This document shows positions 38,321-55,715 of a stretch of DNA of 64,000 nucleotides, piece by piece. The notes beneath the pieces were generated by a model. The model searched no databases. It saw only the letters and a program-made list of their open reading frames with translations, and was not told the DNA's origin. Position numbers and translations under genes: made by a program. The stretch covers positions 1-64,000 of the forward strand of contig MNXP01000047.1 in assembly GCA_001872625.1 (NCBI GenBank). The letters are read 5' to 3'. How positions within the stretch are numbered: position 1 is the stretch's first letter; each line of letters begins with the position of its first letter. The DNA is from Bacteroidetes bacterium CG2_30_33_31. GTDB taxonomy: Bacteria; Bacteroidota; Bacteroidia; Bacteroidales; UBA1556.

Positions 38321-40786
38321 TTATGATTTAAAAATTCGTTCAAAAAATGTTTTTTTCTTAGTTGTAAAATCACTTTCTCCATAATAGTTGCCGTAGCCAT
38401 ATCCATACCCATAACCGTATCCATATCCATAACCGTAACCATATCCATAACCGTAGCCTCCATATCTTTTATTTTCGAAGTCCATATCATTAACTATAAT
38501 CGAAACATTCTTAATTAATTTTGAATTTACAAGTTCTTTTAAAGTGCTTAATGCGCCTTTATTTGTATAGTTTTGGCGAACTACATAAAGTGTTGCATCA
38601 GATCGTTTCATCATAAAAACAGCATCGGTTACCAAACCAATTGGAGGTGAGTCAATGATGATGATATCGTACATACTTCTTAGTTCTTTTAATAGATTAT
38701 CCATCTTGGAGCTCTCTAAAAGTTCTGCTGGGTTAGGTGGAATTGGACCAGAGGTAATAACTTCAAAATTTTCGTATTGAGTTTTCTGAATCATCTCTTC
38801 AATGGTGCATTTTCCTATAAGATAAGTAGTTAACCCTATATTATTATTTACGTCTAAATCTTCATGAAGTTTAGGTTTTCTTAGGTCGCAGCCTATCAAA
38901 ACTGTCCTTTTGCCAGAAATAGAATAAATAGATGCAAGATTTATGGCGTTAAATGTTTTGCCTTCACCACTAAAAGTTGAAGTAAGAGTGATTATTTTTG
39001 ATTCATTATCTGAAACAATAAATTGCATATTTGTTCGAATTGCTCTAAAAGTTTCAGCAATAATAGATTTGGGTTTACTTAGCACAGCAGTATTTCCAAT
39101 GCCTTTATGATGCCCTACAACTCCGAGAATTGGGGAATCAACAACTTTAACAATATCACTTTTATCTCGCACTTTATCATTGAAATAATCGCTTATAAAT
39201 ACAAATCCCATAGGTATTAACAAACCTAACAACAAGGCAATTGTGTAATTTAAAGAGGTTTTTGGAAATATCATTGATGCTGCACGAGAGTTGTCAATAA
39301 TTTTATGGTCGGAAAGATTGCCAGCCTTGGTAATTCCACTTTCTAATCTTTTCTCAAGCAAATACGAATAAATATCTTCATTAATTTTATATTGCCTATT
39401 TATATCTACCAACCTTCTTTCTTTTTCTGGCAAACCATTTATTTCTAATTGTATTGTTCCTAATTGTTCGTTGATATCTTTTAAACCTATTGAAGAAACA
39501 TTTTCAATATTTTGAATATTTTCCAATAGCGCCTTTTCGGTAGATTTTATTCTTTGTTCAACATCCTGAACAACAGGGTTATATTGTGTGGTTGTTGAGC
39601 TATATTGATTTCTTTCGGTGTAAAGTTCGTTAAGTTTATTCACAATGCCAACTAACATAGGTTCATTAATATCCATTATTGCGGGCGCTATCAAACTTTC
39701 TTTTTTTCTATTGGCCTTGCTTATATATTCTTTTAAATATTTGTAATATTTGGAATGAAGTTCAGCTACTGCTTTTTGCTTATCAAGGTCGTAAAGTTTA
39801 TCCAAAGTTCTACCACTTACGTCTTCAATTTTAAGCATTTGGCTATTTACCCTAAAGTTTTGTAGTCTTAATTCAAAGATTCTCAATGAATCTTCAATAC
39901 CAACAAGTTGTTGATCAATAAAATACATTGCATTTGTAGCCTTTTGATTTTTTTCAGATAAATTTGATTCAACATAAGCTGATGCCAATGCATTTATCAT
40001 ATTCATTGCGTTTTCCTGACTTTCATCTTGAATTGAAATTTCTATAAGAGTCGCGTCATTATTAACTTCTTTAGCCTTGAAAACAGAATAATATTTTGCT
40101 GCTAAATAGTCGAGAGATGAAAAATAGAAATAAAATTCTTTGTCATTTCCATAGGGTGCAATAAAATTAAGGGTAAAAGAGAAGCACCCATTTTCATATT
40201 TTTCACCAAAATTCATAATTTTATTTTCTCCATTCGGCAGTGAGTCAATAATATTACTTTTCTCATTTTTACTGTAATCGTAGAGAGAAGAATTTTTAAA
40301 TTGGGGAATAATAAGTTTGTACTGTTTATTGGAAATTAATATAATGTCAATTTTAACTTCAGTAGCCTGAAGATGTGTAGAATCCATAACTACAACAAAT
40401 GGATTTCCGCTAAACATTTGATTTTCACGAATCTTGCCATATCTGTAATATGAAATTTTCCAATCAGTTTTTTGGACAGCTTTTTTGACGGTATTAAAAG
40501 ATTTTATGACGGCAATTTCATTTTGCATAATAATTGGTGGCGTGCCAAGCATTTTTGGCATTATATCCGACATTGGGTTCTGACTAAGTTCATCATTACC
40601 AACTAATATTGTTGCCTTAGCTTCAAAATCGGGATCAGCAAATTTATTGAAAAAATAAGCTGTTAACATAGCAATCACAATCGAGATAAGAAATAATTTC
40701 CAGAAAGCAAGTGCTTTAAAAACAAGTGCTTTTATATCAATGCTATCTTCCTGTTGAACGAACGATAAATTATTATTTGTTTCCAC
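38321..40786 (-). CDS. Wzc-like polysaccharide co-polymerase/tyrosine autokinase with Tyr-Gly repeat tail
   Basis: An 821-residue fusion. N-terminal Wzz-type domain with membrane helix near 35-50, long periplasmic coiled-coil region (about 270-450), second helix near 515-535, and a cytosolic BY-kinase: Walker A STFSGEGKT (about 605), Walker A' VLIGCDLRKPKL, Walker B IIIIDSPP. It controls exopolysaccharide chain length and export by autophosphorylation of C-terminal tyrosines. The tail has 14 tyrosines, including eleven uninterrupted Tyr-Gly pairs (778-799), encoded by an 18-bp DNA repeat. It lies 6 bases from the Wza-like gene. Confidence 0.93.
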   Translation of the reverse strand: METNNNLSFVQQEDSIDIKALVFKALAFWKLFLISIVIAMLTAYFFNKFADPDFEAKATILVGNDELSQNPMSDIMPKMLGTPPIIMQNEIAVIKSFNTVKKAVQKTDWKISYYRYGKIRENQMFSGNPFVVVMDSTHLQATEVKIDIILISNKQYKLIIPQFKNSSLYDYSKNEKSNIIDSLPNGENKIMNFGEKYENGCFSFTLNFIAPYGNDKEFYFYFSSLDYLAAKYYSVFKAKEVNNDATLIEISIQDESQENAMNMINALASAYVESNLSEKNQKATNAMYFIDQQLVGIEDSLRIFELRLQNFRVNSQMLKIEDVSGRTLDKLYDLDKQKAVAELHSKYYKYLKEYISKANRKKESLIAPAIMDINEPMLVGIVNKLNELYTERNQYSSTTTQYNPVVQDVEQRIKSTEKALLENIQNIENVSSIGLKDINEQLGTIQLEINGLPEKERRLVDINRQYKINEDIYSYLLEKRLESGITKAGNLSDHKIIDNSRAASMIFPKTSLNYTIALLLGLLIPMGFVFISDYFNDKVRDKSDIVKVVDSPILGVVGHHKGIGNTAVLSKPKSIIAETFRAIRTNMQFIVSDNESKIITLTSTFSGEGKTFNAINLASIYSISGKRTVLIGCDLRKPKLHEDLDVNNNIGLTTYLIGKCTIEEMIQKTQYENFEVITSGPIPPNPAELLESSKMDNLLKELRSMYDIIIIDSPPIGLVTDAVFMMKRSDATLYVVRQNYTNKGALSTLKELVNSKLIKNVSIIVNDMDFENKRYGGYGYGYGYGYGYGYGYGYGYGYGNYYGESDFTTKKKTFFERIFKS
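38390..38455 (-). repeat. 18-bp-period tandem repeat encoding (Tyr-Gly)11
   Basis: On the coding strand three 18-base units of the form TACGGTTATGGATATGGT (last base or two varying) follow one another, then a partial unit. This gives eleven Tyr-Gly dipeptides. Such repeats can change copy number by slippage in multiples of two residues per 6 bases without a frameshift. Confidence 0.9.
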
Positions 40787-41599: not shown

Positions 41600-42012
41600 T
41601 TGCAGTTAGTTTCAGTAATTATTTATGCCTAAATTAATAGTTTTATATTTTAAAATCAAAGGTTTATCTAATAAATCGAATAGAATAAAAACTTATCTAT
41701 ATTATTTGCAAACTTACATTTTTTATATTTATCTCATCACAATTTGTAGTAAATATCACAAAACTTAATTTTATGATTTTATCTTGAATAAAAAAAACAA
41801 TAAACTTATTATTAAGATTTATTGTCTTAAAAAAACATGAGCAAATTATTAATTTAATTTTTTACAAAATATTTGCCTAAAATTATTAATATCAACGTAT
41901 TGAAATTAAATATTTTACAAATCTATCTTGATGATATTTTTATGTTAATTTGCAATAAACTTAATTTAGGCAACCATTTTATTATTGCTAACTCTCTAAA
42001 AGCATAAGATTG
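41600..42012. promoter_or_regulatory. Divergent spacer between wza-like and sigma genes, with a -7 box
   Basis: On the minus strand TAAGTTTG (41709-41716) is a perfect -7 box for the export operon, giving a leader of about 100 bases. The rest is very AT-rich. An A/T-only hairpin at 41798-41824 is noted but not called. No perfect plus-strand TAnnTTTG precedes the sigma gene, which might be autoregulated by its own sigma. Confidence 0.45.
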
Positions 42013-42573
42013 ATGACTTTTGATGACAAATTACTTGAGTTATGTAAAAAAGGTGAACGTGCGGCACAAGAAAAATTGTTCAGCATCTATTCACCAAATA
42101 TGCTCGGTATTTGTATAAGATATGCCAAGAATCTGCATGAAGCTGAAGATGTTATGCAAGAGGGTTTTATAAAAATCTTTACTAACATTGATGGATTTCG
42201 AGGCGATGGTTCTTTTGAAGGATGGATGAAGCGAATTATGATAAATACTTCCTTGAATCACTATTACAAAGCTAAAAAGAGTAATTTTGAAACAAGTTTT
42301 GATGGCATTCGAGAAAGTAAAATCGTAAGTGAGGATGAAGAGATACCTATTAGTAGGTTTTCGCAAGAAGAAATGATTGACGCCATCAAACTTTTGCCTC
42401 ATGGATACAAACAAGTTTTTAATATGTACGTTTTTGATAATTACAAACATAGAGAAATAGCAGAGCTATTAAATATTTCGGTAAACACTTCAAAATCACA
42501 GCTTTCAAAAGCACGCAACTTTTTAAAGAACATACTTCTTAAAATTGAAAAGGAAAGAAAAATTATTGAATAG
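42013..42573 (+). CDS. ECF sigma-70 factor, cassette 1
   Basis: 186 residues with region 2 (YAKNLHEAEDVMQEGFIKIFTNI, DGSFEGWMKRIMINTSLNHY) and region 4 (LPHGYKQVFNMYVFDNYKHREIAELL, then NTSKSQLSKARNFLK). No TTG-started extension is needed: ATG at 42013 is preferred to the TTG at 42010. It is closely related to the sigma factor at 49640 (same DVMQEGFI, GSFEGW, NTSKSQLS-AR words). The downstream membrane protein begins 3 bases after its stop, and the PKD protein follows that. Confidence 0.95.
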   Translation: MTFDDKLLELCKKGERAAQEKLFSIYSPNMLGICIRYAKNLHEAEDVMQEGFIKIFTNIDGFRGDGSFEGWMKRIMINTSLNHYYKAKKSNFETSFDGIRESKIVSEDEEIPISRFSQEEMIDAIKLLPHGYKQVFNMYVFDNYKHREIAELLNISVNTSKSQLSKARNFLKNILLKIEKERKIIE

Positions 42574-42576
42574 AAC

Positions 42577-44082
42577 ATGAGCAAAAGCGATAATTATATT
42601 GATAAATTATTTCAAGATGGTCTTAGTGATTTCAGCTATAAACCAAGCGATGACTCATTTGAAAAAATATTGAAAGGAGTTGAAATTGCTGAAAAAACTT
42701 ATATTCACAGAAAGAGAAATAAGATATTTGCATGGATAGGATTTTCAGCTGCTACTTTGATTTTAGTTTCATATATTTTCTTCTTAAAAAGCTGCAATGT
42801 AAATGGTTCTATTGCCGATTTTAAATTCAAGAATAGAAATAGCCTGCAAAATTCAAATAAATGGATAGTCAAATTCTCAAAAAACAATCAAGACAAAATT
42901 TATTCTAATCAAAAAAAAGAAATATATAAATTAAAATATTTAGAATCTAATAAAATAATTGATTATAGGGCGAAAAATAATATTCAAAATTCAAATTCAT
43001 CCTATAAATTGTCTCAATTTAATAGCAAGTTTGATAAAGTTCATTTGGTAAAGAAGAATAATTCATTGATTAATACCTCTGGTTTTAATATTTATGATGA
43101 AGCAACAAGCAATAAATTTTCGGCTGTGAAGAAGGAATATGATAATTCTGAAATCTTAATAAAAGAAATCGAAATGAAGGCAACAACCAAAATTTCTGAA
43201 ATCGAAATACCTTTAGAAACATCAAATAATTCAGCTTTAAGTTCTTTAGATACATCAACCCAAAATCAATTATTACCTCTCCCTTCTCCAACAATAACCT
43301 CTGGATTATTGCTTAATTTAGGATTTGGATTCGAGTCAGTTGAGAATAATTTGCCGTCAAATTTTATATATGACAAACCTATGATAGATGGCCAGAATGA
43401 TAATAAAATAAAAACATTTTCCTCATCTTTATTGCTCGAATATAGGTTTTCAAACTTTTTTGTAAAATCAGGCTTAGGAATTTCGGAATTTGGTGAAAAT
43501 ACCACCTTTAATATCACAAATACTTTGCACGACACTTCTGGCGGATATACTTCTTGGGATATAAATAAATATTACACTTACGACACCGTTGGCTATTTTG
43601 ATGATCCTCTGAGACCCGGCCTAATATTTCCAATTTTATCATCAGTGCCTCATATAGATACATTGGCTTCGCAATGGAATTCAAAGGATAATATTACATA
43701 TTCTAAGGAATCAATATTTTCAAAAAACAGATATAGATATATCGAAATCCCATTAATAATTGGTTTTCAATATAATATCAAAAAAATGGGGTTATATGCT
43801 GGCGGTGGAATTTCTTATGGAATTATGACAAATTCTTCTGGAAAATTTATAAATGATAATAATTTGATTGATATCAATTTTAAAGAAACCCCTTTTAAAA
43901 GAAGCAACCTAAATTATATTTTAAATATTGGGACTGATTACGCACTATCAAATAATTGGAATATTTTCATTCAAGCTAATTTTAAAGCAAATATAACTTC
44001 GATATTTAAACCTGAGTTTGACTTAGGGACAAAATATAAAAGTTACGGAATTAATATTGGATTAAGTTACATAATTAAATAG
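42577..44082 (+). CDS. Putative anti-sigma/outer-membrane beta-barrel fusion protein, cassette 1
   Basis: 501 residues. The N-terminus is cytoplasmic and has one YIDKLFQDGLSDFSYKPSDD-SFEKI element. One membrane helix (about 49-70) follows, then a low-complexity Asn/Lys/Ser linker (about 75-245). The C-terminal 240 residues have amphipathic strands ending in an aromatic-rich final strand (SYGINIGLSYIIK), typical of porin/PorT-like outer-membrane barrels. It aligns by eye with the protein at 50179 (YRYIEIPLIIGFQY versus YTYIDIPFSVGYQS). Position after sigma suggests anti-sigma function; this is inference. Confidence 0.7.
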   Translation: MSKSDNYIDKLFQDGLSDFSYKPSDDSFEKILKGVEIAEKTYIHRKRNKIFAWIGFSAATLILVSYIFFLKSCNVNGSIADFKFKNRNSLQNSNKWIVKFSKNNQDKIYSNQKKEIYKLKYLESNKIIDYRAKNNIQNSNSSYKLSQFNSKFDKVHLVKKNNSLINTSGFNIYDEATSNKFSAVKKEYDNSEILIKEIEMKATTKISEIEIPLETSNNSALSSLDTSTQNQLLPLPSPTITSGLLLNLGFGFESVENNLPSNFIYDKPMIDGQNDNKIKTFSSSLLLEYRFSNFFVKSGLGISEFGENTTFNITNTLHDTSGGYTSWDINKYYTYDTVGYFDDPLRPGLIFPILSSVPHIDTLASQWNSKDNITYSKESIFSKNRYRYIEIPLIIGFQYNIKKMGLYAGGGISYGIMTNSSGKFINDNNLIDINFKETPFKRSNLNYILNIGTDYALSNNWNIFIQANFKANITSIFKPEFDLGTKYKSYGINIGLSYIIK

Positions 44083-44089
44083 CAGAAAG

Positions 44090-45865
44090 ATGTTTATGAC
44101 AAAAAAGATTTTTATCTCCCTACTTTTCGTCGCAATTTTTCCAATTCTGGGCTATAGCCAATTGACTGTAATTTACGGTTATGTGAAAAGTAATTCCACA
44201 AATATTGGAATTCCTAATCACCAAGTTAATATTATATCAAGCTACGATTCCTTATTAAATATAGGCATAAATTATAATTCATCTGTTTTTACTTCTTCAA
44301 ATGGATTTTTTGTAGATAGTGTAACCATTCCTTCTGGTCAAAATATTAAATTCTCGATCTCCACTTTAGATTGCCAACAGAGCCATGTAAATAGTACTTT
44401 TTACAGTTCTTTTCCTTTGCCAGCGAACTTGTCAATTTGCAATGCAAATATGAATCAATGTTATTCCGATTTTATGGCTTATCCCGATACTTCAAACCAT
44501 AAGAAATTATATTTTTATAATTTAGCATCTCTAAATATCACTTCATTCTTATGGTCTTTTGGAGATGGGGGCACATCAACATTGGCAAATCCAACACATA
44601 TTTACTCATCCGATGGGAGCTACATAGTTCAATTAACCGTGAATGATTCTATTTCTACATGCAGCAATTCCAAACAAGATACTGTTATTGTAAGTCAGAT
44701 ATTAAATTGCCAAAACAATTTTAATTTCTATCACAATAGTTTACAAATAAATTTTCATGGCTCTATAAATAGTGCTCTTCCAACAGTTTATAAATGGAGC
44801 TTTGGGGATAATACTTTTGCAACTGGACAAAATCCATATCACATATATGCAAATCCAGGAACATTTCAAGTTTGTCTTCACACAATTTCTATTAATCCTA
44901 TGAGTATGGATTCTTGCATAGCTTCTTCCTGCAAGAGTGTAATTGTTCAGGGAATTCCAACTACAAATATTTGGGGTCAGGTTTTTGAAGATACTGGCAA
45001 AGTAGATTTTGCGCAAGTGATTTTATATAAATATAATCCATCTAATTCCGATTATCAAAATTTTGACACTACCAATGTAGTTACCATTGATAGTCTTAAT
45101 TTGAGCTATTATGAATTCTCAAATATTCCTTATGGCAAATATCTCGCTAAAGCTTTTTTAACTAATCAATCTCAGCATCTTACTGAATTTACACCAACAT
45201 ATTCTGGCAATTCAATTTTTTGGAATTTAGCCAACCCTTTTATCATAAATCAGAATGTAAACAATAATTTTATAAATCTGAAAAGAGTTGAAATTGCAAA
45301 AGGTATTGTAAATATGGAGGGGCGAGTGCTTGAAGGTTCTGCAAAAAATCCTGGAGATCCAGTTCCAGAAGTTCCCATTTATATATATGATGTTCAAGGA
45401 GATATATACGGGTTCACTCATTCTGACATGCAAGGAAGATATTCTTTTAATGGATTGGAATACAAAAAATATTATATCTACGCCGATTTTATTAATATGG
45501 ATATTTATCCTGCGGTTATTTGGCCTGACAAAAACAACATTAATCTTACAGAAATTAATATTTACGTAAATAAGAATACTGTAACTTCTTTTCGTGATGA
45601 AAGTGCAAGTATTTCATTTAATATCTTTCCTATTCCAGCAGACAACCAGCTTACTTTAAATCTATTTTCAATACAAAATTCAGATTTTAGCTTTGAGATT
45701 TTAAATTCTTTGGGTCAGATTATTCAAAAAGAAAGTATTCAAATTTTTAAAGGTGAAAATAAAATTACTTTGAATGTTAAAGATTTTCAAAATGGAATAT
45801 ATAGCTTGATGTTTTCGTCAAATAAGGAAGTAATTTTTGCAAAAAAAATAATAATTTCACATTAG
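44090..45865 (+). CDS. Secreted PKD-domain protein with T9SS type A sorting domain, cassette 1
   Basis: 591 residues: signal peptide (ending GYSQ, about 24), carboxypeptidase-like Ig fold (TVIYGYVKSNSTN), two PKD domains (SFGDGGTSTLANPTHIY and SFGDNTFATGQNPYHIY), two more Ig/carboxypeptidase-regulatory-like domains (NIWGQVFEDTG; GRVLEGSAKNPGD), then a type A CTD (FNIFPIPADNQLTLNL to GIYSLMF). Homologous throughout to the protein at 51769. It starts 7 bases after the barrel gene. Surface display through the type IX system is expected; the ligand is unknown. Confidence 0.88.
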   Translation: MFMTKKIFISLLFVAIFPILGYSQLTVIYGYVKSNSTNIGIPNHQVNIISSYDSLLNIGINYNSSVFTSSNGFFVDSVTIPSGQNIKFSISTLDCQQSHVNSTFYSSFPLPANLSICNANMNQCYSDFMAYPDTSNHKKLYFYNLASLNITSFLWSFGDGGTSTLANPTHIYSSDGSYIVQLTVNDSISTCSNSKQDTVIVSQILNCQNNFNFYHNSLQINFHGSINSALPTVYKWSFGDNTFATGQNPYHIYANPGTFQVCLHTISINPMSMDSCIASSCKSVIVQGIPTTNIWGQVFEDTGKVDFAQVILYKYNPSNSDYQNFDTTNVVTIDSLNLSYYEFSNIPYGKYLAKAFLTNQSQHLTEFTPTYSGNSIFWNLANPFIINQNVNNNFINLKRVEIAKGIVNMEGRVLEGSAKNPGDPVPEVPIYIYDVQGDIYGFTHSDMQGRYSFNGLEYKKYYIYADFINMDIYPAVIWPDKNNINLTEINIYVNKNTVTSFRDESASISFNIFPIPADNQLTLNLFSIQNSDFSFEILNSLGQIIQKESIQIFKGENKITLNVKDFQNGIYSLMFSSNKEVIFAKKIIISH

Positions 45866-49639: not shown

Positions 49640-50179
49640 GTGCTAAACGAAAAGGAGCTTATATCGAAGTGCCTTGAAGGAGAGGCGGAGGCCTTAAAGC
49701 AATTGTACGAGAATTATTCTCCCAAATTGTGGCCTGTTTGTCTTCGGTATGCTCGCAATAAAATGTCGGCAGAAGATATAATGCAAGAGGGTTTTATTAG
49801 GATTTATAAATATCTTGAATTTTACAAAGGTGTAGGTTCTTTTGAAGGTTGGCTGCGAAAAACAATGGTAAACACTGCTATAAATTATTATAAAAAAAAT
49901 TTAAAGCAAAACAATGAAAAAGATTTGGATGCTGTTTTTGGAATTGCAAATAATGAAGTTGATGCAATTTCTAAGTTAAGCACAGAAAATATTCTTGAGT
50001 TAATAAGTAGTTTACCTGATGGTTATAGAACTATTTTTAATATGTTCGTCATTGAAGGATATCCACATAAAGAAATTGCTGAAAAGCTTGGAATATCTGA
50101 AAACACATCAAAATCGCAACTCTCAAGAGCAAGAGTTATACTTCAAATGAAAGTAAAAAAATTATTTAATATTGAATAA
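49640..50179 (+). CDS. ECF sigma-70 factor, cassette 2
   Basis: 179 residues; regions 2 (NKMSAEDIMQEGFIRIYKYL, GSFEGWLRKTMVNTAINYY) and 4 (LPDGYRTIFNMFVIEGYPHKEIAEKLGIS, NTSKSQLSRARVIL) are intact. The only suitable start is GTG at 49640, since an in-frame stop lies at 49622-49624 and the next ATG is inside region 2. Close paralogue of the sigma at 42013. Its stop overlaps the ATG of the barrel protein by one base (TAATG). Confidence 0.94.
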   Translation: MLNEKELISKCLEGEAEALKQLYENYSPKLWPVCLRYARNKMSAEDIMQEGFIRIYKYLEFYKGVGSFEGWLRKTMVNTAINYYKKNLKQNNEKDLDAVFGIANNEVDAISKLSTENILELISSLPDGYRTIFNMFVIEGYPHKEIAEKLGISENTSKSQLSRARVILQMKVKKLFNIE

Positions 50180-51762
50180 TGAAGAGTGATTTTGATCAAA
50201 TATTGAGAGAAAAAATGCAGGAGCTAAGTTCAGCTCCTCCAGCAAGCTTGTGGTCGAAAATTGAGAATGCATTGCCCAAATCAAATACTGTAAATAAATT
50301 TGACCAAGCTGTTCAGTCGAAAGTTAGCAAAGTGGAAATGTTACCACCAGAAAAGATATGGTACAAAATCAGATCTTCCATTGGCTTAATAAAAGTGCCA
50401 TTTTATAATACTAAAGCATTCAGATTTTTAGCAGCAGCCTCAGTGGTTTTAGTTTCACTATTAGGATGGAATTACTATACAAATAATTACAATTCAATGC
50501 TATTAATGAAAAATAGCGAAGTCATTTCCAAAAATCATTCGCATAATTCTATAATTGTAAATTTAAAAAATAATTTCCCAAAACAAATCATTATTAAGCC
50601 AAAAAATATCACAAATATTGCCTTGAAAGTTTCGCTTGCAAACAAATCAATACAAAAAACTCAGGATGATATTAAGCAAGAAATTAAAAACTTTTCAAAT
50701 CCAGAAATAAACCAAATACCACAAATTAATATTTCCAAAAGCTTAGCAACAAACCTCACCGAAAAAAGCGAACTATCTATATATCAAGGCAATGATTTTA
50801 ATAAATTTGAAATTGAGACTAATCCTGAGCAAGTAGTATTAACTGAAAATACTAAAGAAAAGTTGCCCAAAGAATCTACTATAGCAGCTGAAGAAAATAA
50901 CAAAACTAAAATTGCAAAAAATCAAAAAATTGAAATATCAGTAAACAAAAATCTCGAATCTATTATCAACATTCTCGACCCAAATTTAAATAAAAACTTA
51001 GATTCTTCCATGGTATCAAATAATGAGTCAAACGAAAATAATTTGAATACAGGAGAAATCCCAAAGAATCCAAGAAATATTGATAAATTTGACATTGGAT
51101 TGTCTTACAGCTCCTCATTTGTAAAATCTGACATCAATAATTTCAATATACAAGATGTTGATTTTACCATGGGTTATCAAAATTTAAATTTTATTGCAAG
51201 AGCAGGAATTGGAGCAAGTTTCTCTTCCGAAAAAGAGCTCTATTTAATGGATTATAAACGTCATCAATTTATAAAATCTCAATTTATTACAGAATCTCTT
51301 TCATATATTTATGATTCAATTTCTCATAGTTTTGCATTAGTTGCTACTGGCCATCAGGAGAGCGTTTACGATAGTGTAAATTATTCATATTCCGCCGAAG
51401 CTACAACAAATTATACATACATTGATATCCCATTTAGCGTTGGTTATCAATCAGATTTTAAATATTTTTCGCTTTTTGCCAAATGTGGATTCGACTATTC
51501 AATTATCATTTCCAGAAAAGTTAATGGATTGTATAACGTAGATAATCAATCGAATATAACAAATTTATATTATCCTATAAAAACTAGAATTAATACAAAT
51601 ATCAGCTATCTATTATCATTAGGAACCTCCATAAAATTAACGGAAAATTTTAGTGCTACAGCTGAGGTGATTTCCAATTTTTACCAAAATCCAATATTTA
51701 TTGAAAGCAAAAAAAGACCTAACTCTTACGGGATAAGGTTTGGAATAACATATTCTCTATAA
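50179..51762 (+). CDS. Putative anti-sigma/outer-membrane beta-barrel fusion protein, cassette 2
   Basis: 527 residues. The cytoplasmic part holds two tandem copies of a motif, FDQILREKMQ...PPASLWSKI (about 4-28) and FDQAVQSKVS...PPEKIWYKI (about 40-65). One membrane helix (about 81-100) and a long Asn/Lys-rich linker (about 110-310) follow. The C-terminal beta-barrel-like region ends SYGIRFGITYSL. No zinc-binding anti-sigma motif is present, so if it binds the sigma factor it does so with another fold. Translational coupling to the sigma gene supports that role. Function inferred only. Confidence 0.7.
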   Translation: MKSDFDQILREKMQELSSAPPASLWSKIENALPKSNTVNKFDQAVQSKVSKVEMLPPEKIWYKIRSSIGLIKVPFYNTKAFRFLAAASVVLVSLLGWNYYTNNYNSMLLMKNSEVISKNHSHNSIIVNLKNNFPKQIIIKPKNITNIALKVSLANKSIQKTQDDIKQEIKNFSNPEINQIPQINISKSLATNLTEKSELSIYQGNDFNKFEIETNPEQVVLTENTKEKLPKESTIAAEENNKTKIAKNQKIEISVNKNLESIINILDPNLNKNLDSSMVSNNESNENNLNTGEIPKNPRNIDKFDIGLSYSSSFVKSDINNFNIQDVDFTMGYQNLNFIARAGIGASFSSEKELYLMDYKRHQFIKSQFITESLSYIYDSISHSFALVATGHQESVYDSVNYSYSAEATTNYTYIDIPFSVGYQSDFKYFSLFAKCGFDYSIIISRKVNGLYNVDNQSNITNLYYPIKTRINTNISYLLSLGTSIKLTENFSATAEVISNFYQNPIFIESKKRPNSYGIRFGITYSL

Positions 51763-51768
51763 TTTTTT

Positions 51769-53517
51769 ATGAAACAAATAATTACATTTATATTTATTTT
51801 TTTGGCAGGAATTTCGCTGCCAATTTCAGCTTACTCTCAAAATTGCGAATCTAATTTTGAGTTTTCAGTTCAAGAAGAAATTTCACCTTTAACATATCAA
51901 TTTCAGGAAAATTGTTTTTCTAATACTCCAATTATAAAATATAGCTGGGATTTTGGCGATGGCAGCACCTCGGCTAAACAAAATCCAGAACATCAATTTC
52001 TTAGCGATAGCGTTTTTTTGGTAAGTCTGACCATACTTACTGCCGATAGTTGTAGTTCCACCCATAGCGATTCGATTCACATCAGCAAACTAATTCCTCC
52101 AACTTGTATGGCTTACTTCACCTTTATTAGAATGAATCAAGCTACAGATTATACATATGCATTTACCGACCATTCGGTGCCGACTTATGGAGATACAATT
52201 AGTACTTGGTTATGGAACTTTGGCGATTTTTCGCAATCTAATGCGCAAAATCCTATTCATCAATATTCAGCCACAGGAAATTACAATGTTCACTTGAGTA
52301 TTTCTACAAAACAAGGATGCAGCTCGAGTTATAGTTTTGTGATAAATATTTTTAACGGCAACTCTCCATGCCAAGCTTCATTTACTTATTCTCAAGATAC
52401 TTCTGGAAATTTATTGCAATATCATTTTCATGATAATTCGAGCCATTCCACTACCATAACAAGTTGGAAATGGTTCTTTGATGACGGTGATAGTTCAATT
52501 TTACAAGATCCAAATCATGTCTTTCCTTTTGCTGGAATATATTTTGTAAAATTAAAAATCAACACCGCTGGCGGCTGTAGCAGCGAAATTACTTTTCCAA
52601 TAAAAATTGCTGACCCAAAAACATATAATGTTTGGGGAAGGGTTTATGCTGGCCAGTATGTAATAGATAAATGCATAGCCTATCTTTATAAAGAATATTA
52701 TAATAATTACTACAAAGCAGTTGATACAGTAAGGCTTACATCAATAAATGATACTCTTGGAGTTTATTATTTCTTTCAGGTTTCCGAAGGAAACCATAAA
52801 GTGAAAGTGCTTTTGCCTAACACCTCTACATTTTCAGATGATTATGCTCCTACATATTTTGGTGACAATGCAAGGTGGCCACAAGGCAACACTCTGTATT
52901 TATTTCAAGATATTTCTTTGGCCAATATAAATTTAGAAAATGTAATACCTTCGGTAGGTCATTGCATGATTTCTGGAAATATTAACTCCACGAATACAAA
53001 CATTTCTACCTTAGCGGGAATTGAATTATTGCTTTATAAAAACTCCGGAGCAATTGCAGATTATGCATTTACCGATGCTCAAGGTAATTTTGCTTTTGAT
53101 GAATTAGCTCCAGGCTCATATTCAGTTTCCGGCGAGATAACTGGTTTATATTCAAATATGATAAATCTTAATTTTAATCAAGATTTTGACACAATTTCTA
53201 ACCTTATAATTAATCTATCAAACACAAGCATTACAGGTTTTTTTATTCGAAATGAAGTTAATAATTTCAAATTTTCTTATTATCCAAACCCTGTTGAAAA
53301 TATTTTAAACATCGAATTTGATAGCTCAATTTTGACTGACCTAAATATTCAAATTAGCTCCATGGATGGGAGGTTGATTAATCAGTATAATATAACAAAA
53401 AATAGTCCCAATTTAATTCAAATTTCAACAGCTAATATTGTTAAAGGAGTTTATTTATTAAAACTTTACGACCTAAAGTCAAAAATCCAAAAAGTAGTAA
53501 AGTTTGTGAAGATTTAA
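51769..53517 (+). CDS. Secreted PKD-domain protein with T9SS type A sorting domain, cassette 2
   Basis: 582 residues: signal peptide (ending AYSQ, about 24), three PKD domains (SWDFGDGSTSAKQNPEH; WLWNFGDFSQSNAQNP; WKWFFDDGDSSILQDP), two carboxypeptidase-regulatory-like folds (VWGRVYAGQYV; ISGNINSTNTN), and a type A CTD (FSYYPNPVENILNIEF to GVYLLKLYD, ending KVVKFVKI). Paralogue of the 44090 protein with one extra PKD domain. A terminator follows. Confidence 0.9.
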   Translation: MKQIITFIFIFLAGISLPISAYSQNCESNFEFSVQEEISPLTYQFQENCFSNTPIIKYSWDFGDGSTSAKQNPEHQFLSDSVFLVSLTILTADSCSSTHSDSIHISKLIPPTCMAYFTFIRMNQATDYTYAFTDHSVPTYGDTISTWLWNFGDFSQSNAQNPIHQYSATGNYNVHLSISTKQGCSSSYSFVINIFNGNSPCQASFTYSQDTSGNLLQYHFHDNSSHSTTITSWKWFFDDGDSSILQDPNHVFPFAGIYFVKLKINTAGGCSSEITFPIKIADPKTYNVWGRVYAGQYVIDKCIAYLYKEYYNNYYKAVDTVRLTSINDTLGVYYFFQVSEGNHKVKVLLPNTSTFSDDYAPTYFGDNARWPQGNTLYLFQDISLANINLENVIPSVGHCMISGNINSTNTNISTLAGIELLLYKNSGAIADYAFTDAQGNFAFDELAPGSYSVSGEITGLYSNMINLNFNQDFDTISNLIINLSNTSITGFFIRNEVNNFKFSYYPNPVENILNIEFDSSILTDLNIQISSMDGRLINQYNITKNSPNLIQISTANIVKGVYLLKLYDLKSKIQKVVKFVKI

Positions 53518-53648
53518 TTTCTTTATTAATAAATGCAACCATTTCTTTAAGGCATTTGTCGTCTGTAAATATTGAGCCAAAGGAATAGGCAAAACGGTTT
53601 AATATTAATAAGTTTGTTTCTTTTCTGTTTGTTTATTATTAATTGCTA

Positions 53649-53681
53649 AAAGCAATCTTTCCCAAGAAGGTTGCTTTTTTT
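53649..53681 (+). terminator. Terminator at the end of cassette 2
   Basis: AAAGCAATCTT (53649-53659) pairs with AAGGTTGCTTT (53667-53677), with one G-T pair, followed by a T tract on the + strand. It can also act weakly on the minus-strand queA transcript, which ends at 53680. Confidence 0.85.
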
Positions 53682-55142: not shown

Positions 55143-55715
55143 ATGACTGAAATAGAATTAGTTGAAGGATTAAAAAATGGTGAAAATTTAGCTTTCCAAT
55201 ATTTGGTAGAAAATTATCGCAGGAAAGTGATTTCAACTTGTTTCGGTTTTACAAACGACATAGAAGCAGCTTTAGATTTATCACAGGAAGTTTTTATTGA
55301 AGTTTATCGCTCTGTAGAAAAATTTAGAGGCGAGGCAAAAATTTCTACATGGGTTTTCAGAATTGCCACAAATAAATCATTAAATTGGGTTAGAGATAAC
55401 AAGAAACGCTCTTACTTCAAAAGTATTGAAAGATTTTTTGTATCGGATAAAACACAAATAATGGATTTAGAAGATAAGAATTCGCGAAACGTAATTAAGG
55501 TCATGGAAAATAGCGAAGATTCGATTTCAATTCAGAAGGCTATAGATAAACTACCTGAAAATCAAAGAATTGCTTTTGTTTTAAATAAAATTGACGAGCT
55601 AAATTATAAGCAAGTTTGTGAAGTTATGGATATGTCGATGGCGTCGGTTGAATCATTAATTCATCGTGCAAGATTGAATCTTCAAAAATATTTAAAAGAC
55701 TTAGAAAGAGATTAA
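55143..55715 (+). CDS. ECF sigma-70 factor without adjacent anti-sigma gene
   Basis: 190 residues with region 2 (FTNDIEAALDLSQEVFIEVYRSV, GEAKISTWVFRIATNKSLNW) and region 4 (LPENQRIAFVLNKIDELNYKQVCEVMDMSMASVESLIHRARLNL). It belongs to a different subgroup from the cassette sigma factors (region 4 ends SVESLIHRAR rather than NTSKSQLSRAR). The next gene is convergent after 4 bases, so no partner is encoded here. A cognate could be the ZAS protein at 3046. Confidence 0.94.
   Translation: MTEIELVEGLKNGENLAFQYLVENYRRKVISTCFGFTNDIEAALDLSQEVFIEVYRSVEKFRGEAKISTWVFRIATNKSLNWVRDNKKRSYFKSIERFFVSDKTQIMDLEDKNSRNVIKVMENSEDSISIQKAIDKLPENQRIAFVLNKIDELNYKQVCEVMDMSMASVESLIHRARLNLQKYLKDLERD

Follow-up and report, generated by a model that had tools for sequence, protein, structure and literature searches.

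A predicted Dma/Reo-type anti-sigma factor reaching from the cytoplasm to an outer-membrane barrel, and its relatives in Bacteroidota

How might a polypeptide that starts in the cytoplasm end in the outer membrane, and what would link it to the sigma factor gene directly upstream? The question is raised by a three-gene operon in the window analysed here, a 64,000-nucleotide stretch (positions 1-64,000, forward strand) of contig MNXP01000047.1 from Bacteroidetes bacterium CG2_30_33_31 (GCA_001872625.1). The intergenic gaps of this operon are -1 and 6 nt, the TAA stop codon of the sigma gene sharing one base with the ATG start codon of the second gene (TAATG), whose product is referred to below as the 50179 protein (Table 1). 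With a probability of roughly 0.85, we propose that this protein is a single-chain, dual-membrane anti-sigma factor that would hold the upstream ECF sigma until a change at the outer membrane frees it to act on its own operon, an outer-membrane (OM) protein gene and a small RNA.

In an AlphaFold2 model built on a 31-sequence family alignment, the C-terminal region forms a closed eight-stranded barrel with block pLDDT values of 89-98, except in one loop near residues 451-470 (75-77), and a Foldseek search against the PDB returns OM barrels among its best matches (OmpA, Ail, NspA, OmpX and OprF), the best target TM-scores belonging to the small barrels NspA, OmpA, OprF and Ail (0.69 for NspA). 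Such a closed barrel had been set beforehand as the test of the first-pass annotation, which had read the protein as one chain running from the cytoplasm to the outer membrane; the same model and matches rule out a beta-sandwich for the C-terminus. Because 77 residues stand before the inner-membrane helix, the protein starts without a signal peptide, as had been supposed. The cytoplasmic motif noticed in the first pass is likewise present, in the form of a tandem pair of hairpins, two clear copies of which are found in the closest orthologs (L066 and L067); the linker is disordered as described, its length being about 200 residues rather than 170-200. Pfam and NCBIfam searches with the 50179 protein give no match and no anti-sigma domain, the hairpin motif has neither a Pfam model nor a match to solved anti-sigma structures in a PDB profile search, and a family profile compared with PDB sequences yields only chance-level matches and weak matches to OM proteins.

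Table 1. Features of the two sigma/anti-sigma operons in the window and of the region downstream
Feature	Position	Strand	Evidence
Probable autoregulatory promoter of paralogous operon, GGCAACC-N16-CTCT	41969..41995	+	promoter motif scan
Paralogous ECF sigma factor	42010..42573	+	Pfam
Paralogous anti-sigma/barrel protein	42577..44082	+	motif 6-29, helix 54-70, barrel 274-500
Paralogous third gene, T9SS type A PKD protein	44090..45865	+	Pfam
Probable autoregulatory ECF promoter TGCAAC-N18-GTCC, 18 nt before sigma start codon	49594..49621	+	motif of related sigma genes; genus orthologs carry same site
ECF sigma factor (ECF21-like), 179 aa	49640..50179	+	Pfam Sigma70_r2 and Sigma70_r4_2 above cut-off
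Anti-sigma/barrel gene, 527 aa, intact ORF	50179..51762	+	ORF, motif, AlphaFold2 model, Foldseek
First cytoplasmic helical hairpin, residues 3-31, probable sigma-binding motif F..hhL......PP..hW..I	50185..50271	+	motif HMM E=4e-11; model helices 3-17/22-31
Second cytoplasmic helical hairpin, residues 40-67, degenerate tandem copy	50296..50379	+	model helices 40-50/58-67; weak motif match 56-68
Inner-membrane helix, residues 78-101	50410..50481	+	hydropathy; model
Disordered periplasmic tether, residues 102-302	50482..51084	+	pLDDT below 50 (block pLDDT 35-49)
8-stranded outer-membrane beta-barrel, residues 303-526	51085..51756	+	model; Foldseek
Operon gene 3: secreted PKD protein, T9SS type A sorting domain	51769..53517	+	PKD_4 5e-36, Por_Secre_tail 5e-11, TIGR04183 above cut-off
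Second ECF-type promoter, 16 nt after last stop codon of operon	53534..53560	+	pattern match; orthologous sites G004, G005, G006; non-syntenic G001
Candidate sigma-dependent small RNA, intrinsic terminator 53648-53678	53569..53678	+	core conservation; terminator scan

The absence of an anti-sigma domain in these searches would suit an ordinary OM protein with an odd start, lying next to a sigma gene by coincidence. Comparison across the phylum makes this account highly improbable, as neighbourhood, N-terminal motif and helix are all retained. A sigma search in 60 genomes of the order (set 1) gave 119 sigma genes, 117 of them with a same-strand partner behind, and a phylum-wide named set (set 2) comprises 80 loci, about 75 of which have the same gene order; over the roughly 190 sigma loci in total, the partners keep the hairpin motif, the membrane helix and the long linker, nearly all having motif and helix. 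The N-terminal motif (F...L......P...W..I) is found by a motif HMM in 166 of 180 partners and in 1 of 180 shuffled sequences, although the fairer figure is the 67 of 73 set 2 partners found by the HMM trained on set 1, since the 180 include part of its training data. Set 1 partners have a strongly hydrophobic 17-residue stretch in 114 of 117 cases, and a positive charge bias at the helix (K+R 3.7 before versus 1.3 after). Fused-barrel partners directly behind related sigma genes number 98 (68 in set 1 and 30 complete ones in set 2, two loci being shared), more than chance would give. Also at odds with a coincidental neighbour are the published relatives discussed below and a natural fusion, L128:2491-4826 (-), in which one chain contains sigma, hairpin, helix and linker, a separate signal-peptide protein providing the barrel.

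The window itself contains a paralogous operon with identical gene order, and the plan that had been seen as common to both middle proteins (N-terminal motif, one hydrophobic helix, C-terminal barrel) is borne out by the positions of motif, helix and barrel, the paralog matching Pfam OMP_b-brl at 4.8e-6, just under the cut-off. The third genes of barrel operons carry a TIGR04183 match in 30 of the 39 scanned, two of the 39 match the NigD1/NigD2 lipoprotein model, and lipoprotein-like third genes occur in L087, L095 and L110, three Bacteroidales relatives recognised by the same barrel profile. A further ECF sigma gene in the window (55143-55715) is without an adjacent partner and lies very far from both operon sigmas on the tree.

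Helix and barrel are separated by 115-355 residues in set 1 (median 203, n=68) and by no fewer than 131 in set 2 (median 200, n=30; two loci common to set 1), so that the linker, which is nowhere shorter than 115 residues among the 98 fused barrels, is long enough to cross the periplasm if extended. Among genus orthologs the linker is 13-24% identical with many gaps, and the barrel 30-44% identical and gap-free. A physical tether would be expected to respect a minimum length while otherwise varying freely. The figures match this expectation, and the reach of the linker, together with the model, the Foldseek matches, the charge bias and the published topology of Dma1/2 and Reo, supports the single chain from cytoplasm to outer membrane that the first-pass annotation had put forward.

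Linkers this long and unconserved would also be easily cut, and the 50179 protein might instead be a precursor, whose barrel is released to the outer membrane and whose anti-sigma part stays in the inner membrane with no standing tether, regulated proteolysis freeing the sigma as in RseA. Separate proteins of this kind do exist: natural REARRANGEMENTS are seen at seven loci of Sphingobacteriales and Cytophagales, where the anti-sigma stops after its periplasmic stretch and a separate signal-peptide protein follows, which in 4 of 4 cases scanned is an OM barrel above the Pfam cut-off. These loci show that the covalent link is not universal and, taken with the L128 fusion, that sigma, hairpin, helix and barrel belong to a single pathway. 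We nevertheless regard the precursor as unlikely, because a scan of the linkers of family members, a check set beforehand, found no conserved cleavage site, the fusion is kept in most Bacteroidales, the 98 proteins respect a lower bound on linker length, and the Dma family is described as spanning outer membrane to cytosol (PMC13088901). An AXAQ-type SPase site follows the helix in 1 of 68 fused barrels, whereas the signal peptides of third-gene proteins have one in 15 of 40 cases and split barrels in 5 of 8, a looser AXA rule separating the groups less sharply (24/68 versus 34/40 and 8/8).

A tethered chain could also act as a mechanical gauge, the barrel being merely an outer anchor and the tether registering distance or tension between the two membranes rather than a ligand. 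Free divergence of the linker sequence would fit such a gauge, as would the replacement of the barrel by a T9SS sorting domain, unrelated to it, with a comparable reach (115-389 residues), but the barrel is the most conserved large part of the protein, gap-free among orthologs, and 30 of 39 operons have a surface-protein gene alongside, which suggests a partner or ligand; we give the gauge slightly poorer odds than the cut precursor.

Under the preferred reading of a standing, signal-sensing tether, the cytoplasmic hairpins of the 50179 protein would probably hold the adjacent ECF sigma, with helix 78-101 anchoring the chain in the inner membrane, some 200 disordered residues crossing the periplasm, and the barrel placed in the outer membrane beside the surface protein from the third gene. 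Barrel assembly, a ligand or the loss of a surface partner, or envelope stress may then act as the trigger, the chain transmitting the signal through a pull or through proteolysis, and the freed sigma would transcribe its own operon, the OM-protein gene and probably the small RNA, promoters for which are described below. In the FecI-FecR-FecA system, the same task is divided among three separate proteins, a TonB-dependent OM barrel, an inner-membrane anti-sigma and an ECF sigma; the two resemble each other in that an OM barrel would signal to an ECF sigma via an inner-membrane anti-sigma, and differ in that the present relay would consist of one chain or, in Sphingobacteriales, of a pair of proteins including a small barrel.

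Closer counterparts, which the first-pass annotation does not mention, have been published. In Bacteroides thetaiotaomicron, Dma1 and Dma2 act with ECF21 sigmas in a topology that runs from cytosol to outer membrane, and dma deletion activates the cognate sigma (PMC13088901); in Bacteroides fragilis and Phocaeicola vulgatus, Reo, the partner of EcfO, is predicted to have the same topology and is proposed to sense OM stress, EcfO and NigD being activated by Reo loss or envelope toxins (PMC9308784, PMC13114119). By its architecture and gene order we file the 50179 protein as a putative Dma/Reo-type anti-sigma, and its topology and role are thus not new. The label "ECF21-like" for its sigma likewise relies on partner architecture and on the published link of such partners to ECF21. 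With Dma1, Dma2 and Dma3, whose sigma factors are the Das proteins, it shares an N-terminal anti-sigma region, one transmembrane helix, a long disordered tether, a C-terminal barrel, an adjacent ECF sigma and a three-gene operon (PMC13088901). Compared by architecture, it differs in its tandem hairpins, in a third gene for a T9SS type A PKD protein where B. thetaiotaomicron has a type of protein of unknown function, and in the conserved sigma-type small-RNA promoter behind the operon. EcfO-Reo is similar in that the sigma is followed by an anti-sigma predicted to extend from cytoplasm to surface and is autoinduced (PMC9308784, PMC13114119), but its regulon is known (nigD, O-antigen length), whereas that of the present sigma is predicted to comprise its own operon, an OM protein and a small RNA.

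This predicted regulon derives from a two-box motif, GCAAC-N17/18-RTCY, which lies upstream of the sigma genes at 64 of 180 classified loci compared with 13 of 1080 control upstream regions, many of the sigma genes carrying it as TGCAAC-N18-RTCY; the motifs were found in the same loci in which they are counted, and whole-genome counts with reversed-pattern controls agree. The pattern TGCAACNWWWYN13GTC has two matches in the window (49594 and 53534) where 0.03 are expected, and motifs of this type occur 14 times in eight genomes of the genus, the reversed control occurring 0 times. Six of these genomes carry the site before the sigma ortholog, and in G002 and G008 it precedes a conserved OM-barrel-like protein of about 250 aa, members of the same family (42-87% pairwise identity) lying behind sites in this genome, G005 and G006, five genomes in total. 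A regulon scan of the own genome returned 7 sites versus 2 and 10 versus 3 in the reversed-pattern control, few in number and several inside genes, so that only the self-promoters and the genus-conserved OM-protein site are trusted there; a sigma-70 promoter scan, with 30 found against 27 expected, was uninformative.

Behind the second promoter of the window lies a U-rich core of about 28 nt, AGTTTGTTTCTTTTCTGTTTGTTTATTA, which is identical in five genomes of the genus. The promoter and core recur at the same place in G004, G005 and G006 and at another place in G001, each time followed by a terminator-like hairpin, and the stems differ in sequence among genomes while each remains terminator-like. 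The segment is best read as a predicted sigma-dependent small RNA. It matches no Rfam family, and a genome search for an extended antisense target of the 28-nt core returned only the core itself, leading us to reject a simple long duplex. At L302 and L303, around positions 1501-1640, a terminator-like hairpin lies no more than about 60 nt behind a sigma-type promoter, with a second sigma-type promoter and an OM-protein gene coming next, and this hairpin region is a candidate second small RNA.

Across the roughly 190 loci the outer module varies between a fused barrel, a separate signal-peptide barrel and a T9SS type B sorting domain. Partners in set 1 end in a barrel in 68 cases, in a type B sorting domain in 22 and in neither in 21 (n=117, the rest being truncated genes); in set 2, fused barrels are found chiefly in Bacteroidales and sorting domains in Flavobacteriales, including the cultured Crocinitomix catalasitica ATCC 23190 (L257) and a Chryseobacterium gleum MAG (L251), most Chitinophagales and Sphingobacteriales having neither. 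The sigma tree requires about 10 exchanges between barrel and sorting-domain ends, a rough number because many branches are weak, and clustering is strong. On these sequence comparisons, barrel and sorting domain appear to be replaceable outer modules of one partner type. A class of short partners (213-287 aa, seven loci of the genus) has no barrel or sorting domain and ends in a conserved basic tail, e.g. GILYKLGIRK.

The sorting-domain class is represented in the own genome by L058:2117-3208 (-) on contig C12, in which motif, helix and linker are followed by a type B sorting domain instead of a barrel (CHU_C 52.7 bits, cut-off 27; TIGR04131 57.0, cut-off 35); the corresponding scores for L257 are 55.9 and 35.4, and its low-confidence model (mean pLDDT 56) was left out of the evidence. 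No cleavable N-terminal Sec signal peptide was found in this class, 39-83 residues standing before the helix and an AXAQ site being present in 0 of 22, and since a T9SS signal is thus carried without a Sec signal peptide, we do not file these proteins as ordinary T9SS type B substrates. Next in the operon at L058, L078, L080, L092, L102 and L175 come an M16-type peptidase-like gene and one for a large protein; M16 was confirmed with Pfam at L058 and L078, and CHU_C was confirmed in the large proteins of L078, L080, L092 and L102. The strict promoter has 20 matches in eight genomes of the class versus 3 for the reversed control. In two Flavobacteriales genomes (G061 and G066), strict promoters away from sigma genes precede type IX cargo genes, five of them complete. 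Type B sorting-domain matches are present in four of the five, two of these matches falling below the TIGR04131 cut-off and CHU_C confirming one of the two, and the fifth gene has a type A tail; a sixth similar promoter-bearing cargo gene is cut by a contig end. Each of these genomes contains three or four related sigma genes, and in G061 no fewer than two belong to the sorting-domain class, so that any of several sigmas may serve the cargo promoters.

We tentatively suggest, at somewhat less than even odds, that a sorting-domain anti-sigma may be engaged by the T9SS at the outer membrane while still anchored in the inner one, so that secretion activity or free capacity would gate an ECF sigma transcribing large T9SS cargo genes, with barrel and sorting domain as interchangeable outer ends of one chain. 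It would be a T9SS counterpart of FlgM, the anti-sigma of FliA that is exported by the flagellar T3SS. FlgM is a possible analogue in that the sorting-domain anti-sigma bears the tag of the very secretion machine for which its kind of sigma seems to transcribe cargo genes, but the T9SS acts at the outer membrane, the anti-sigma here is inner-membrane-anchored, the two sequences are unrelated, and export is a possibility suggested by the tag. In Porphyromonas gingivalis, a T9SS CTD protein is described as feeding back on an ECF sigma via a two-component system (PorA, PorXY-SigP; PMC7712824); the abstract of that paper does not call PorA an anti-sigma, whereas in the class proposed here the sorting-domain protein would be the anti-sigma itself. 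None of the papers searched mentions an "anti-sigma factor" together with a "type B sorting domain", or "anti-sigma" together with "gliding motility-associated C-terminal". If true, such coupling would explain how cells match the production of giant T9SS adhesins to secretion capacity.

The 50179 protein supports the view that single-chain signalling from outer to inner membrane is widespread in Bacteroidota and not an oddity of gut Bacteroides. Beyond the Dma and Reo papers, what appears new is the variety of outer modules, one version being a T9SS export tag; a predicted sigma promoter recognisable across orders, with a small RNA, an OM protein and T9SS cargo among its apparent targets, the first two giving the regulon a layout like that of E. 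coli sigma-E; and the hairpin copy number, which ranges from 1 to 7, the motif being repeated in 22 of 180 proteins. Before the membrane helix, L125 has six and L194 about seven copies, repeats which suggest that several sigma molecules may be held per sensor. Elsewhere in the window, 38321-40786 (-) encodes a probable exopolysaccharide chain-length/tyrosine-kinase-like protein with a C-terminal alternating Gly-Tyr run (GYGYGYG...), adjoined by a probable export lipoprotein gene.
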